Below, piece by piece: positions 48,329 through 54,672 of a stretch of 64,000 bases of DNA. Origin of the DNA: Deltaproteobacteria bacterium (lineage in GTDB: Bacteria; Desulfobacterota; GWC2-55-46); assembly GCA_016177845.1 (NCBI GenBank), contig JACOUO010000011.1:700326-764325 (forward strand). Reading direction: 5' to 3'. The translations under genes and the position numbers were made by a program. The notes under the pieces were generated by a model. The model saw only the letters and a program-made list of their open reading frames with translations. It did not search any database and was not told the origin of the DNA. Every line of letters starts with the position of its first letter. Position 1 is the stretch's first letter.

Positions 48329-48976
48329 TTATTCTACTACAAGCTTATTGATTTTATCGTCAAACCTTACTACCTTTATTTCCTTTGGTTTTATGTTCAC
48401 CACCTGATCAAGCGTATAATCAGGGGCGGCTTTATTCCCCTTATCATAGAGGTTTGCCTGAAATCTGTGCGTACCCGGCCCTACCATGAACTCATCATAT
48501 ATATATGATGCCATGTCTTTTTTCAGGCCTGTCGGAGAGTAGGATTTATTAAGCATCTGCTTGCCGTCAACCCACAGCTCTACGCTCACTGGGTGTCTTT
48601 CACGGGGGCAGTCGGCAAGCTTCTGCATGCTCATCTGCACCCTTTTGACTTCCTTAAGCTCTTTACGGTAGCGGTCGCCCTCTTTCTTCATCATGTCTGA
48701 TTCCCCGCAATCCGAGACCCTTTTACCCGTATGCTTGAAGGCTACCTTGAATGCGGCGTCATTTGCCCTGTAATGAGAGTATGAGAAATCAGAAAGAAAA
48801 AATATGGGCAAGGAGATTACCATCAACACAGCCACGAGCTTAACGAATATTGCGGCTGAGAACGGCTCTTTCTTTTTCGGTACCGCTTTCTTATCCTTCT
48901 TAAAAAGGAACTCTTTACCTATTATGTATGCGCTTGGTATTAAAAACGCCAGAAATACGATTACTATTATTAACAT
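48329..48976 (-). CDS. Uncharacterised membrane protein of the second respiratory module
   Basis: 215 residues: two transmembrane helices near the N-terminus (residues 2-19 and 44-64) and an extracytoplasmic beta-rich C-terminal domain with VSVELWVDGKQMLNKSYSPTG and VGPGTHRFQANLYDKG, resembling a small Ig-like domain. It starts within the last codon of the cytochrome b fusion gene (1-nt overlap), so it is its translational partner. No cofactor motif is visible. The role is unknown; an accessory or assembly subunit fits the context. Confidence 0.75.
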   Translation of the reverse strand: MLIIVIVFLAFLIPSAYIIGKEFLFKKDKKAVPKKKEPFSAAIFVKLVAVLMVISLPIFFLSDFSYSHYRANDAAFKVAFKHTGKRVSDCGESDMMKKEGDRYRKELKEVKRVQMSMQKLADCPRERHPVSVELWVDGKQMLNKSYSPTGLKKDMASYIYDEFMVGPGTHRFQANLYDKGNKAAPDYTLDQVVNIKPKEIKVVRFDDKINKLVVE

Positions 48977-50511
48977 TATGCATCCCTCCTGTCTTTAAGC
49001 CCCTTCTGAAAATCCTCAAGATTCGCAATGAAGGTATCTGTTTCAACTGCTGACAGGTAAACAGCATTTATCCGCGCCCTATCTATTGATTTCTTGACTA
49101 CAGGCGGCCTGAAGCCTGCGAGCCGGCCCATAAACCAGTCCGTACCCCTCCTGTAACTGCAGTCGCCCTGTCTGCAAGCCGCTACGAACACTCCGTCAAT
49201 GCCCTTTTCAAACGGGATATAGAGCATCGAGGGCTGAAGCATTCCGATACAGGGCAGGTTTATGACCCTTGCCCACTCATATCCGTTTATTTTACCGGTG
49301 CCGTCGGCCTTGCCTGAAAGCCAGGCTCCTTTGGCGCAGGCAAATACTATTACCTTTTTATCAACGCCTGCATCTTTCAGTTCGGCGCAGAGCCTTCTGA
49401 CTGTATCCTTTACATACTCTTCCGAGATATCAGGCAGGTTAAGCGCCTTGTAGTCACATGCACCCACGCATATTCCGCAGCTCGCGCACCTGCTCTTATT
49501 GACTACAGCCTCAAGCGGATACGCCAGGCCGTCCGTCCTCTTCCTCATCTGTATAGCCTGATAAGGGCAATCTTCCATGCAAAGCTCACAGCCTGTGCAG
49601 TTCTCAAGCGTGACCTCGACCTCAGGGGTCTTTTTTGTGCGTGTAAGCCACGGTACGATGGCTACGATAAGCGTTATCGTTATAATGAAGGCCCACATGC
49701 CATGAGCCGATATAAACTTAAGCGGAGGGAAGATAAACATATAGAACCAGTCAATTGGCACTAATTCAGGCAAGGTCTTAAGCTCTGCCGGAGGCGCGCT
49801 CGTCGCAGGCTTGATGATGGAGATAAGGAACAAAACCAGAACAAGCCCGTAACCGATAAGCCTCGGCGGATTGATGACCGCCTTTGTTACCCTCACAATA
49901 TGGATCAGTATGAGGATAAAGATAAAAAAGATGGAGCTGAAGTGGATGAAGAGCACTATATAGAAAAGCTGGTCGGTAAGATTCTCAAGCCTTGCGAAGT
50001 TCAGGCTCAGAGGAAGGCCGAAAATAGGCACATTCTCAAGCATGTAAGAGGAAAGTGTAGCCACATATCTGGCCTTTTCATCCCATACCATCCAGTAACC
50101 GAAGATGCCGCCTGCTATGAGAACCCATGCTATCACTATGCCCGAGACCCAGGCTATCCATCTCCAGTGCTTGTACCTGTCAAGAGTAAAACATCTTGCC
50201 GCGTGCAGGAGCATCGTTATCACAAGTCCGTCTGAAGCATACCTGTGGAACGATCGTATGATGCCGCCTAAGTACCACTGGTTGACGGTAAGCGACTGTA
50301 CCGAGAGATACGCTCCCCTTGCTGTGATGTTATAGAAAAGGAACAGGTAGATGCCTGTTATAAGAATTATCCACAGGAAAAATATGCTTACAGCCCCGAG
50401 ATAGTAAAACGGGTTGTAGGCTGAAGTGGTTATCTGGTTTATTATCTTTTCAATCCATAACCAGAACCTCTCCAATTGCCCTTTTGGCCTGAACTCTCTT
50501 TTCTCTCCCAT
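48976..50511 (-). CDS. Cytochrome b / two-[4Fe-4S] ferredoxin / MvhD-like fusion protein
   Basis: 511 residues with three parts. Residues 35-290 are a cytochrome b6-like membrane domain with haem-ligand histidines 89, 103, 190 and 204. Residues 305-352 hold two [4Fe-4S] sites (C305xxC308xxC311xxxC315P and C342xxC345xxC348xxxC352). Residues 385-500 resemble the MvhD/FlpD delta subunit of hydrogenase-heterodisulphide reductase, with C392, C421, C446 and C451. It lacks the NWC motif of MvhD, so one ligand is displaced. It would link the quinone pool to a soluble iron-sulphur carrier. It is 32 bp after the SCO gene. Confidence 0.88.
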   Translation of the reverse strand: MGEKREFRPKGQLERFWLWIEKIINQITTSAYNPFYYLGAVSIFFLWIILITGIYLFLFYNITARGAYLSVQSLTVNQWYLGGIIRSFHRYASDGLVITMLLHAARCFTLDRYKHWRWIAWVSGIVIAWVLIAGGIFGYWMVWDEKARYVATLSSYMLENVPIFGLPLSLNFARLENLTDQLFYIVLFIHFSSIFFIFILILIHIVRVTKAVINPPRLIGYGLVLVLFLISIIKPATSAPPAELKTLPELVPIDWFYMFIFPPLKFISAHGMWAFIITITLIVAIVPWLTRTKKTPEVEVTLENCTGCELCMEDCPYQAIQMRKRTDGLAYPLEAVVNKSRCASCGICVGACDYKALNLPDISEEYVKDTVRRLCAELKDAGVDKKVIVFACAKGAWLSGKADGTGKINGYEWARVINLPCIGMLQPSMLYIPFEKGIDGVFVAACRQGDCSYRRGTDWFMGRLAGFRPPVVKKSIDRARINAVYLSAVETDTFIANLEDFQKGLKDRRDA

Positions 50512-50543: not shown

Positions 50544-51365
50544 TTAGCGGCGCGCCTTCCTTCTGAAAAATCCTATTATCTTTTTTCCCCACACAAAGTA
50601 AATGATGAGGCCGATGACAAGCGACTGCATGAAAACACTTAAGATTATCGGGTAATCTATTACATACTTGCCGGTGTACGGGTCGTACTTGTAGCAGAAG
50701 AACTTAATCTTATCGACAATTGAAGCCGAGCTGTCCACAGGAGGCTTTCCGGTGATAAGCTCATCTATCCTGTTGCCAAGGACCGAAGACTGAGTCCTTA
50801 AGCTGTAGACCTGCTTGTATATCGTTCCGTCAGGCCTGAAGACGGTGGCCATATCGATATGGTCAAAACTGCCGTCTTCCTTTTTCTTAAAATAAAAACC
50901 GACCTGTGAGGTAAGTTTTGCAATCGTATCAGCATCAGCAGCAGCAAACCTTATTGAGTTGAAATCATTGACAAACTTCAGCCCGTATTCCCTCATCTTC
51001 TGAGGCGTGTCATGCTCAGTGTCAAAACCGATTGTAAGCGCGTTGAACTTATTGCCGAACCTGTCCCTTGAATCATCTATTACCTTTTTAAACTCTGCCG
51101 TGATACCGGGGCACACATGGGGGCAGCTCGTGTATATGAAACTTATTACAAGCGGTTTTTCGTCCTTGAAATAATCGCTGAGCCTGAACTTTACCCCATC
51201 CTGGTCAGTCAAGGCGTAATCATCTATCTTCTTGCCTTCAGCGTTTACGGAGTTGTCGTATGCCTTTTTAAGCCCGACAGTATCAAGCTCCTCGCCGGCC
51301 TGAGAAGCCATTGGAAGAAGCAGCAGCATGAACAGCAGTGTAAGAGCAATTTTTACGGCCTTCAT
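50544..51365 (-). CDS. SCO1/SenC family copper-delivery protein
   Basis: 273 residues: a signal peptide (1-23), a thioredoxin-like domain with copper-binding CPHVCPGI near residue 85 and the conserved histidine in FDHIDMATVFRPDG, and a C-terminal transmembrane helix. It delivers copper to CuA. It follows the haem-copper subunit I by about 340 bp and stands before the cytochrome b fusion, as SenC does in the norSY-senC loci of ammonia oxidisers. It has its own FNR-like box and -10. Confidence 0.9.
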   Translation of the reverse strand: MKAVKIALTLLFMLLLLPMASQAGEELDTVGLKKAYDNSVNAEGKKIDDYALTDQDGVKFRLSDYFKDEKPLVISFIYTSCPHVCPGITAEFKKVIDDSRDRFGNKFNALTIGFDTEHDTPQKMREYGLKFVNDFNSIRFAAADADTIAKLTSQVGFYFKKKEDGSFDHIDMATVFRPDGTIYKQVYSLRTQSSVLGNRIDELITGKPPVDSSASIVDKIKFFCYKYDPYTGKYVIDYPIILSVFMQSLVIGLIIYFVWGKKIIGFFRRKARR

Positions 51366-51657: not shown

Positions 51658-51688
51658 AAAAACGGGGCTGCTTTGAAGCAGCCCCGTT
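51658..51688 (-). terminator. Intrinsic terminator of the haem-copper subunit I gene
   Basis: Perfect 11-bp stem CGGGGCTGCTT/AAGCAGCCCCG with a tight loop, T-run on the minus strand, 20 bp after the stop. Confidence 0.9.
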
Positions 51689-51707
51689 TCAGTTGGAACC
51701 TGTGTTC

Positions 51708-53222
51708 TTAATCGCCTATCTTCTTACCGAAGATGATCGAGCCAAAGGAGATTAAGATGTAGAGCACGCCGCCGATAGCCGCAAGCACACCACCCACACC
51801 CATCATACTCATGAACATATCGATGGCAGGGTCAAAGGTGAAGGAGAACGGGGCGCCTGAGAAGGTGATATCATAATGCCTTCTGGGCACGCCGAACTGG
51901 CCTGCGCTCATCATGCCTATTGAAAGGGTGGCAACGCCTACTCCGTAAAGATAGGGCTGGATTGTGGCAAAGCCCTTCCAGATTATCTCCCTCTTGAAGA
52001 TATAGGGAATAAGGAGGTAGGTGAAGCCCATGAAGGCGATTGTCGTACCCGCGACTACAGTACCGTGGAAGTGGCCTGTAATAGCCCAGGTATTGTGACG
52101 GATAATATTGAACTGCTCTGTTCCGAAGATGACGCCTGTGATACCGCCAAGGAAACCGAAGAGGAGAATTGATATTGCGATGCCTGAGAAGGCCGGGTTG
52201 CCCCAGGGCGCCTTTTTAAGCCACTCGAAAAGTCCTCTTGTGAAGCCCTGCCTTCTTAAGGCGACCTCAATGGAGGCCGGGATAGCGAAGGCGTGTATCA
52301 TACTGGCAAGTACAGCAAGGTGCATCATGTAGCTTGTGTTTACGATCTTGTGCCATGTTGAAAGAACAGGGTCAACAAGAAGGTGGTGCTCAGAGGCCAC
52401 ATTGATGAACAGTATGTAGAGTACGAAGGCTGTCCTTGAGAGCTTCTCGTTGACAGGCTTGCTGCCTACTACAAAAGCCGCTGTCATGTACCATACGGCT
52501 ACCATCGCGCTGACATTTATCTGCTGCGAAGGATGACCGAGACCCCAGAACACAAGCCTGTAGGCTGCCGGGTCAACATAGCCGATGATGTTTAATGCCC
52601 ATAATAATGTAGGGATGAAGATTGCCGCGCCGTGCGCAAGCGTAAGTACGGCGATGATGGAGCCTGCCGCCATACCGAAAGAACCGAGGGGAAGCGAGCG
52701 TTTGTATCCGCCGTCCCTCTTTGAAAGTGTTACGTTAATGAAGAAGATTATGAAACCGAGCAATGCGCCTACGGCGAATAATATGACGCCGAGATAATAA
52801 ATCGGGTCAGCCTTTAAAGGCACATATGATGTAAACATTACATCCGCGCCGCCAAGGAGGACGATAACATTGATTACGCCGCCTCCGATAAGCATTAGCG
52901 CGAACGCCAACCAACCGAGCCATGGGACATATGACCTCGTGCCTAATAAGACAGTTGAGGTAAAATGAACCAGCGCCACTTCAAAGAAAATAATCCATGC
53001 GAGCAGTGCGTCTATGCCGTGCAGTGTGAGAAACCTGTAGTAATTGGTCGCTCCAAGCAGGTGCACGCTCGGCCACCTTGTCAACGCTACCAGAAGGGCC
53101 ATCAAACCGCCCACGGCAAGAGTCGCAAGGGCTGCGATTACATTCCACTTTATCAGGTTCTCACTGCTTTTTTCTATCTTAAGCCCTGATAAGGGATCTG
53201 TTCTGAATTGAAAATTCGCCAT
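51708..53222 (-). CDS. Haem-copper oxidoreductase subunit I lacking the active-site tyrosine
   Basis: 504 residues, about 12 transmembrane helices. Ligands by position: low-spin haem H68 and H386, high-spin haem H384, CuB H230, H279 and H280. The A/B-type cross-linked tyrosine lies four residues after the CuB histidine; here it is Q234 (GHPSQQIN). The C-type position six residues before the HH pair is Ile273, so neither class is matched. E278 lies next to the CuB pair. This suggests NO reduction or an unusual oxidase. It is followed by a terminator and a SenC gene. Confidence 0.85.
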   Translation of the reverse strand: MANFQFRTDPLSGLKIEKSSENLIKWNVIAALATLAVGGLMALLVALTRWPSVHLLGATNYYRFLTLHGIDALLAWIIFFEVALVHFTSTVLLGTRSYVPWLGWLAFALMLIGGGVINVIVLLGGADVMFTSYVPLKADPIYYLGVILFAVGALLGFIIFFINVTLSKRDGGYKRSLPLGSFGMAAGSIIAVLTLAHGAAIFIPTLLWALNIIGYVDPAAYRLVFWGLGHPSQQINVSAMVAVWYMTAAFVVGSKPVNEKLSRTAFVLYILFINVASEHHLLVDPVLSTWHKIVNTSYMMHLAVLASMIHAFAIPASIEVALRRQGFTRGLFEWLKKAPWGNPAFSGIAISILLFGFLGGITGVIFGTEQFNIIRHNTWAITGHFHGTVVAGTTIAFMGFTYLLIPYIFKREIIWKGFATIQPYLYGVGVATLSIGMMSAGQFGVPRRHYDITFSGAPFSFTFDPAIDMFMSMMGVGGVLAAIGGVLYILISFGSIIFGKKIGD

Positions 53223-53278
53223 CTGTATTAAACACCTCCCTTTCTGATTTAACCAACCCGCCCTTTGTATTTACCTGG

Positions 53279-53319
53279 ATTATATGGAAAGTCTTACAGT
53301 TTAAAAATGACTTTTATCA
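53279..53319 (-). promoter_or_regulatory. CRP/FNR-type promoter directly before subunit I
   Basis: Box TGACTTTTATCA (53308-53319) and a perfect TATAAT (53279-53284) 23 bp downstream on the minus strand, with the expected start near 53272 and 50 nt to the ATG at 53222. Confidence 0.65.
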
Positions 53320-53428
53320 TAACCATCCGGCTTTTACGGCGCATTCAGGCCTTCTATTTCAGCCTTATCAAACGCGCGCGTAAGTGAAGCGGTGCAACCT
53401 TTGAATAGAGCAAAACGCCCTTTGTAAT

Positions 53429-53563
53429 TTACTGAACTCCCCAAACATCCATAAGCCATTTGAGGTGCGCGAACCAGATAACAACGAAGACCGCCAGGAA
53501 TATCAGCGCGAGCACGAATACTCCGGGTGCCTCCATTTCGTTTCTGTGATCATGTGCTGGCAT
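53429..53563 (-). CDS. Small membrane subunit of the haem-copper complex (44 residues)
   Basis: Read from the gap between subunit II and subunit I. It encodes MPAHDHRNEMEAPGVFVL and one transmembrane helix ending in WFAHLKWLMDVWGVQ. AAAGGAGG lies before the ATG, a strong ribosome-binding site. Its size, single helix and place between subunits II and I are like the small subunit IIa of B-type oxidases. Identity by sequence is not certain. Confidence 0.75.
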   Translation of the reverse strand: MPAHDHRNEMEAPGVFVLALIFLAVFVVIWFAHLKWLMDVWGVQ

Positions 53564-53598
53564 TTTGATAACCTCCTTTGCTACATTCAGAGCTTAAG

Positions 53599-54123
53599 TT
53601 ATTTTACATACATTTTGCCGACCATTGTATGGTGGCCTATGCCGCAGTACTCGTTGCAGACTATGTGGAACTCGCCGGTTGTAGTGGGCGTAAGCTTAAG
53701 CACATAATCGTAGCCGGGCAGCGCCATGAAGTTCATGTTAATCGGCAGGATTGAAAACCCGTGCTGAATATCCATGGATGAAAGATGGAGCCTGTAGGTC
53801 TTGCCCTTCTCAAGTTCGAGAACAGGGTACCACTGCCACATGCTCGCCCTTACATATATAGGCTCAGACGGATTGGGATGAACGACCGGGAAACCGTTCT
53901 CCTCGCCGACTTTATACTTGGCGACCATGCCTTCAACAAGCTTGTCAAAATCCTCCGCAGTGACCTTATAAGTCTCTGAGGGAGGGTTCTGGGAGCCGAC
54001 AACATGGTAAATCGGCATAAAGATAAATGAAACAAGCATCCATATCAACGCAACGCCAACCCATATTCTTTCATCCTTGCTTAATGGGTTCCACCACATT
54101 CTCTCTGGTTCGTAAATCGCCAT
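53599..54123 (-). CDS. CuA-containing subunit II of the haem-copper complex
   Basis: 174 residues: one N-terminal transmembrane helix (20-40) and a periplasmic cupredoxin domain with a complete CuA site, H121, C156, E158, C160, H164 and M167 (CNEYCGIGHHTM). It accepts electrons from a c-type carrier. The 53-residue protein is upstream and subunit I follows after the 44-residue gene. With CuA intact the complex is cytochrome c-linked rather than a quinol oxidase. Confidence 0.93.
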   Translation of the reverse strand: MAIYEPERMWWNPLSKDERIWVGVALIWMLVSFIFMPIYHVVGSQNPPSETYKVTAEDFDKLVEGMVAKYKVGEENGFPVVHPNPSEPIYVRASMWQWYPVLELEKGKTYRLHLSSMDIQHGFSILPINMNFMALPGYDYVLKLTPTTTGEFHIVCNEYCGIGHHTMVGKMYVK

Positions 54124-54134
54124 TTTCCTCCTCC

Positions 54135-54296
54135 TTATCGGGCTATCGGCAGCTGAGGCACATTCATCACTTCAATAAGGCCCCATACCGTATAGACCAC
54201 TGTCGGGACTACCACGCCCAAAATTAACAGCAGATAGATATTATCGTAAAGCGTTTGCCAGGCCGGGATCGGCCCTTCATCCCTGTTTGTACTCAT
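54135..54296 (-). CDS. Small single-helix membrane protein (53 residues)
   Basis: Read from the gap upstream of subunit II. MSTNRDEGPIPAWQTLYDN leads into one transmembrane helix (about 20-42), and it ends IEVMNVPQLPIAR. AAAGGAGG precedes the ATG. It is the first gene of the operon and 11 bp before subunit II. No family recognised; a small oxidase subunit is inferred from position. Confidence 0.65.
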   Translation of the reverse strand: MSTNRDEGPIPAWQTLYDNIYLLLILGVVVPTVVYTVWGLIEVMNVPQLPIAR

Positions 54297-54619: not shown

Positions 54620-54652
54620 AAAAAAAACGGGGCAGGTAAAAACCTGCCCCGT
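54620..54652 (-). terminator. Intrinsic terminator of the porin gene
   Basis: Perfect 11-bp stem ACGGGGCAGGT/ACCTGCCCCGT with a four-base loop and nine T on the minus strand, about 20 bp after the stop. Confidence 0.9.
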
Positions 54653-54672
54653 CGAGACATCCAATCCTGAGA

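Follow-up and report, generated by a model that had tools for sequence, protein, structure and literature searches.

The locus studied here encodes a haem-copper enzyme with a CuA-containing subunit II and a subunit I that lacks the active-site tyrosine of oxygen reductases. This raises the question of whether the enzyme reduces O2 or nitric oxide (NO) and, in the latter case, to which family of NO reductases (NORs) it belongs. We analysed the locus within the window, i.e. the whole stretch of 64,000 nucleotides, and by comparison with related loci and genomes. Our main reading, to which we give a probability of about 0.88, is that the locus encodes an eNOR-type, CuA-containing NO reductase of the haem-copper superfamily. 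eNOR is an already known, biochemically characterised family, to which the host locus would add a member; less familiar are the partner gene, a helix split off from subunit I and a sister family without CuB.

Gene layout and metal sites

An open reading frame check returned the locus genes where the sequence-only reading had placed them, all on the minus strand (Table 1). Because terminator-like hairpins flank orf53, subunit II, orf44 and subunit I on both sides (51659-51690, and a second one upstream of orf53 at 54626-54653), the four genes probably form one core transcript that ends at the first of these hairpins, both hairpins being consensus matches and not proof. The cupredoxin subunit II is separated from the downstream subunit I only by orf44. 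The position of the SCO gene is kept in many of the compared eNOR loci.

Table 1. Features of the eNOR locus, in order from orf53 downstream (positions in the window)
Feature	Position	Strand	Description
orf53	54135..54296	-	small membrane protein with one helix; conserved subunit associated with eNOR
subunit II	53599..54123	-	cupredoxin with complete CuA, one TM anchor; PF00116
orf44	53429..53563	-	single TM helix, counterpart of the C-terminal helix in longer subunits I of eNOR
subunit I of eNOR	51708..53222	-	504 aa; PF00115, 195 bits; haem and CuB ligands intact
terminator-like hairpin	51659..51690	-	14-bp stem, strong, intrinsic type; directly 3' of subunit I
SCO/SenC family protein	50544..51365	-	PF02630; CxxxC (81, 85); probable copper chaperone
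cytochrome b/2[4Fe-4S]/FlpD fusion	48976..50511	-	PF00033, Fer4, PF02662; conserved eNOR partner
hyp215	48329..48976	-	membrane-anchored, 3' of the cytochrome b gene; family unassigned

We aligned subunit I with Y-type oxidases, cNOR, qNOR and cbb3 oxidases. The six metal-ligand histidines read earlier from the sequence (H68, H230, H279, H280, H384 and H386) were all confirmed. The alignment also agrees with the earlier reading of two replaced tyrosines: Q234 falls in the column of the oxidase cross-link tyrosine, and I273 aligns with a Tyr of the cbb3 oxidase encoded by the host itself, the C-type position. The CuA set of subunit II is complete, as had been claimed (H121, C156, E158, C160, H164 and M167), and the best PDB match of this subunit is a ba3 subunit II (1.7e-13).

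Q234, H230, H279/H280 and H384/H386 were invariant in an alignment of 18 sequences from four phyla with 50-90% identity. Gln occupied the tyrosine column in 19/19 eNOR-like sequences vs Tyr in 8/8 B-type oxidases; the aligned Gln-bearing homologues came from Gemmatimonadota, Verrucomicrobiota, Sumerlaeota, Deinococcota, Thermomicrobiota and Alphaproteobacteria, and the sole exception among homologues was a copy in one relative (L062) that is broken by a frameshift. Judged from these alignments, the residue pattern of subunit I is not due to chance, because the ligands and Q234 are invariant in the 18 sequences and both small ORFs recur beside homologues. The glutamate before the CuB histidine pair (E278), which had been singled out as worth attention, is present in the host's lineage and confined to it; other members have Ala or Met, for which reason we rejected E278-HH as a defining motif.

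All eNOR-like sequences have a tyrosine on TM8 (Y298) that the oxidases lack, and this residue might lie near CuB; the predicted structure model had a pLDDT of 69 and was low around the active site. Regarding the proton path, the alignment showed conserved K-path positions Y245 and S307, with His310 as the equivalent of T312 in ba3, a set of residues consistent with the single proton channel predicted for eNOR.

We made two side observations on plasmid-borne relatives. In the eNORs of Thermus plasmids (L066:14983-16665 and L067:11983-13668) HFK replaces HFH on TM10, so that the predicted ligand of the low-spin haem would be Lys, not His. A plasmid of Thermomicrobium roseum (NC_011961.1) carries both an eNOR and a second haem-copper enzyme (441066-442391, L093), an sNOR candidate with Asn in the tyrosine column.

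Family assignment

The residue in the tyrosine column sorts NORs, with Glu in cNOR and qNOR, Asn in sNOR and CuANOR, Asp in gNOR and Gln in eNOR (PMC8756737, Table A4). The eNOR family (Hemp & Gennis 2008; Murali et al. 2024, both as cited in PMC8756737 and PMC11388526) is related to the B-family oxidases and is listed among the biochemically characterised NORs, with NO reduction reported (PMC11388526). B-type O2 reductases carry a Tyr four residues after the CuB histidine of TM6, and subunit I has Gln234 at this place. A cNOR or qNOR identity was ruled out by Gln in place of Glu and by a CuA subunit in place of the haem c of NorC or a fused quinol domain.

In a maximum-likelihood tree the Q-bearing proteins formed one clade (support 92/95), which grouped with a CuB-less sister family (100/98), the two together being split from the B-type oxidases. 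The Y-bearing B-type oxidases were monophyletic (100/99), leaving subunit I outside the canonical oxidase clade; the phylogenetic check proposed along with the sequence-only reading thus spoke against a canonical oxidase. The founding member of the family was reportedly found to reduce NO, and one eNOR was reportedly purified from Rhodothermus marinus. The tree was built without this characterised Rhodothermus enzyme, and it is the marker residue and the kinship with the B family that carry the family assignment. Comparison with the PDB, by sequence as well as by fold, gave ba3 oxidases as the solved structures nearest to subunit I, as expected since eNOR is a B-family relative. The Gln marker, the phylogeny and the conserved small ORFs all support what had been suspected from the sequence, namely a tyrosine-less putative NO reductase with two small subunits.

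Plasmids of T. thermophilus carry an eNOR homologue in the nitrite/NO (nic) cluster described in PMC5748679, beside nsrR/DUF542, nirJ and nirM, and in TTHNAR1 also nirS. In TTHNAR1 the homologue sits between the nir genes and nsrR/DUF542, which is the site of norC-norB-norH (norCBH) in strain JL-18. No cNOR was found on the two searched plasmids that carry the eNOR homologue. L067 and L114 represent the same plasmid site in two T. thermophilus strains, occupied by eNOR in the first and by norCBH in the second; within the nic cluster one NOR seems to have been exchanged for another. This exchange at a single Thermus site provides independent genomic evidence for the function of eNOR.

Small subunits, cytochrome b partner and CuB-less sister

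The sequence-only reading had proposed two extra small subunits of 44 and 53 residues, and both recur next to homologues. A homologue of orf53 was found 5' of subunit II in eNOR loci with intact upstream sequence, among them those of Thermus (41 aa), Thermomicrobium and Defluviimonas, and these homologues share the pattern DNxxLLLxLxxxxxxxxYxxWG. By this recurrence both small ORFs are real genes, and orf53 is conserved across phyla.

In the host's lineage orf44 is a separate gene, located 5' or 3' of subunit I. By tblastn it matches a segment within the ORF for subunit I in Defluviimonas and Opitutia, and in aligned C-termini it matches the C-terminal helix of subunit I from Thermus, Thermomicrobium, Defluviimonas, Gemmatimonadota and Verrucomicrobiota. 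The alignments indicate that orf44 is this helix, detached from subunit I by gene fission. That orf44 could be recognised as subunit IIa of a ba3 enzyme was also considered and rejected, as it had no PDB match at E<=10 and its tblastn match falls inside longer subunits I. Two relatives (L073 and L074) have a tandem pair of eNOR subunits I, about 73-75% identical to that of the window, with orf44 between them.

The cytochrome b/FlpD protein has haem-ligand histidines at positions 89, 103, 190 and 204, and its structure matches are cyt b6 and MvhD. These four histidines and eight ferredoxin cysteines were invariant in the full-length sequences among the 30 homologues compared. The gene was present in 36/38 genomes with eNOR vs 3/109 others (147 relatives, which are related genomes and not independent). 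It is adjacent to the eNOR genes in Defluviimonas and Verrucomicrobia and, in divergent orientation, in Gemmatimonadota. As it was not found near the eNOR genes of Thermus and Thermomicrobium, it is not needed everywhere for catalysis. Among the papers searched, none described a cytochrome b/FlpD protein together with haem-copper enzymes. The adjacent hyp215 had no Pfam or NCBIfam matches, and it is kept at the same place in several phyla. In one relative (L062/L082) stops or frameshifts break both eNOR subunit I and cytochrome b/FlpD, as if they were lost together.

The fusion is conserved and, as an electron-transfer protein, apparently undescribed; we read it as a putative quinone-linked partner of eNOR. 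A wider reading, which we put forward tentatively and hold to be possible rather than probable, is that eNOR forms the core of a larger, unrecognised NO-respiration module. In such a module the cytochrome b/2[4Fe-4S]/FlpD protein and hyp215 would be a dedicated partner that links the quinone pool to iron-sulfur carriers of the cytosol by electron transfer keeping pace with NO reduction, with the CuB-less two-haem sister of subunit I added in some phyla.

This sister family keeps the haem ligands and one CuB histidine but has lost the TM7 histidine pair (IY, LF or VY instead). Copies were seen in the host's own genome (C14, L068:8449-9852) and in L059, L060, L061, L063, L071, L072, L078, L083, L085 and L087; in nine relatives, and also in Verrucomicrobia, the sister is a direct neighbour of eNOR. 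Genes for a haem o synthase and a cytochrome c lie beside the host copy. Near it, on the minus strand (L068:7144-7566), is a gene for a 140-aa protein whose only match is a 64-residue stretch of cbb3 subunit I. Our literature search on CuB-less haem-copper enzymes found nothing relevant.

Host denitrification, rival readings and known systems

The host genome (3.0 Mb, 100% complete) contains narG above the cut-off, two cd1-type nirS with cytochrome c domains, one of them near NirJ-like and NirF-like genes, and canonical bc1 genes. Both an A-type and a cbb3 oxidase are also encoded. Neither nosZ (PF18764) nor nirK was found over the cut-off in the host. A PF00115 search, whose control detected both cNOR and qNOR, found no other haem-copper NOR than the enzyme of the window, and eNOR looks like the host's only NOR of this superfamily. 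Since narG, two nirS and bc1 are present and nosZ and another haem-copper NOR are absent, the gene content suggests a partial denitrifier that would take nitrate to N2O. In the host genome (C20, L118:3430-8634, minus strand) a cd1 nitrite reductase gene adjoins the genes of bacterial Ku and ligase D, i.e. of non-homologous end joining.

Among 64 relatives nirS occurred in 24/36 with eNOR vs 5/28 without it (Fisher 1e-4, relatedness not corrected). Because 12/36 eNOR-bearing relatives lack nirS, the role of eNOR in some hosts may be detoxification; nirK matches were present in two of those 12. That the enzyme is an NO reductase mainly for detoxification rather than respiration would fit those eNOR-bearing relatives in which nirS and nirK are both missing, and the decay of the eNOR copy in one relative. 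However, the CuA site and, as it seems from its residues, the K-type path are retained, as in energy-coupled enzymes, and the host has narG and two nirS; we hold this reading to be unlikely.

The locus could also encode an unusual O2 reductase whose redox tyrosine has moved elsewhere, e.g. to Y298 on TM8. The invariance of Y298 in eNOR-like sequences and its absence from oxidases speak for this, as do the apparently kept K-type path and the ba3 oxidases as best PDB matches. However, A-type and cbb3 oxidases are already present in the host, the Thermus homologue stands in for cNOR in an NO-respiration cluster, and NO reduction by eNOR has been reported (PMC11388526); we regard an O2 reductase as highly improbable. 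An eNOR may also reduce some O2. Gene order had suggested an sNOR, since subunit II, subunit I and SCO follow each other like norS-norY-senC, as pointed out in the sequence-only reading, and both enzymes are CuA types. The diagnostic residue led us to reject this likeness: Asn is expected in an sNOR, whereas Q234 is the eNOR marker. The Asn-bearing Thermomicrobium enzyme also fell outside the group of eNOR and B-type oxidases in the tree, although on a long branch, and an sNOR identity is hardly credible.

The analysis established the ligands, Gln234, the conserved small ORFs, the phylogeny and the gene content; activity, electron donor, proton route and transcript structure are predictions for an eNOR. 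Electrons from quinol would reach CuA of subunit II by way of bc1 and a soluble carrier (a cupredoxin or cytochrome c). From there they would move to the low-spin haem (H68/H386) and on to the high-spin haem (H384) and CuB (H230, H279, H280) in subunit I, where two NO would be reduced to N2O. With Gln234 in place of the cross-linked tyrosine, the extra electron and proton donor for O2 splitting would be missing, and because of this two-electron NO chemistry would be favoured. Protons would probably be taken from the cytoplasm by the K-type path (Y245, S307, H310); NO reduction would then be electrogenic. The products of orf53 and orf44, the latter as the detached C-terminal helix, would act as small membrane subunits, and SCO would supply copper. 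In the host, eNOR would finish the route from nitrate over nitrite and NO to N2O.

Standard pipelines annotate eNOR as cytochrome c oxidase, and production of N2O, its predicted product and a greenhouse gas, is therefore missed in such hosts. What eNOR requires to work can be approached through concrete targets: the conserved orf53, the helix detached as orf44, the CuB-less sister and the cytochrome b/FlpD protein.

Compared with the eNOR family, the host enzyme agrees in its CuA subunit II, in a subunit I related to the B family and in Gln for the cross-link tyrosine, and the residues of a putative K-type path are largely retained. It differs in its C-terminal helix, which is a separate 44-aa gene, in E278 before the CuB histidine pair and in the adjoining cytochrome b/FlpD gene, a comparison made without the Rhodothermus eNOR sequence itself. 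With the B-type (ba3) cytochrome c oxidase of Thermus it shares the fold (TM-score 0.77-0.78), the CuA subunit II and the K-path Tyr and Ser, but it lacks the cross-link tyrosine, has His310 at the equivalent of T312 and belongs to a separate clade. The sNOR (norSY-senC) is likewise of CuA type with an SCO gene close by, and differs by Asn where the host enzyme has Gln. cNOR and qNOR are also NO reductases of the haem-copper superfamily without the tyrosine; they have Glu at its position, a non-haem iron site and a haem c or quinol donor, and are distant in the tree.
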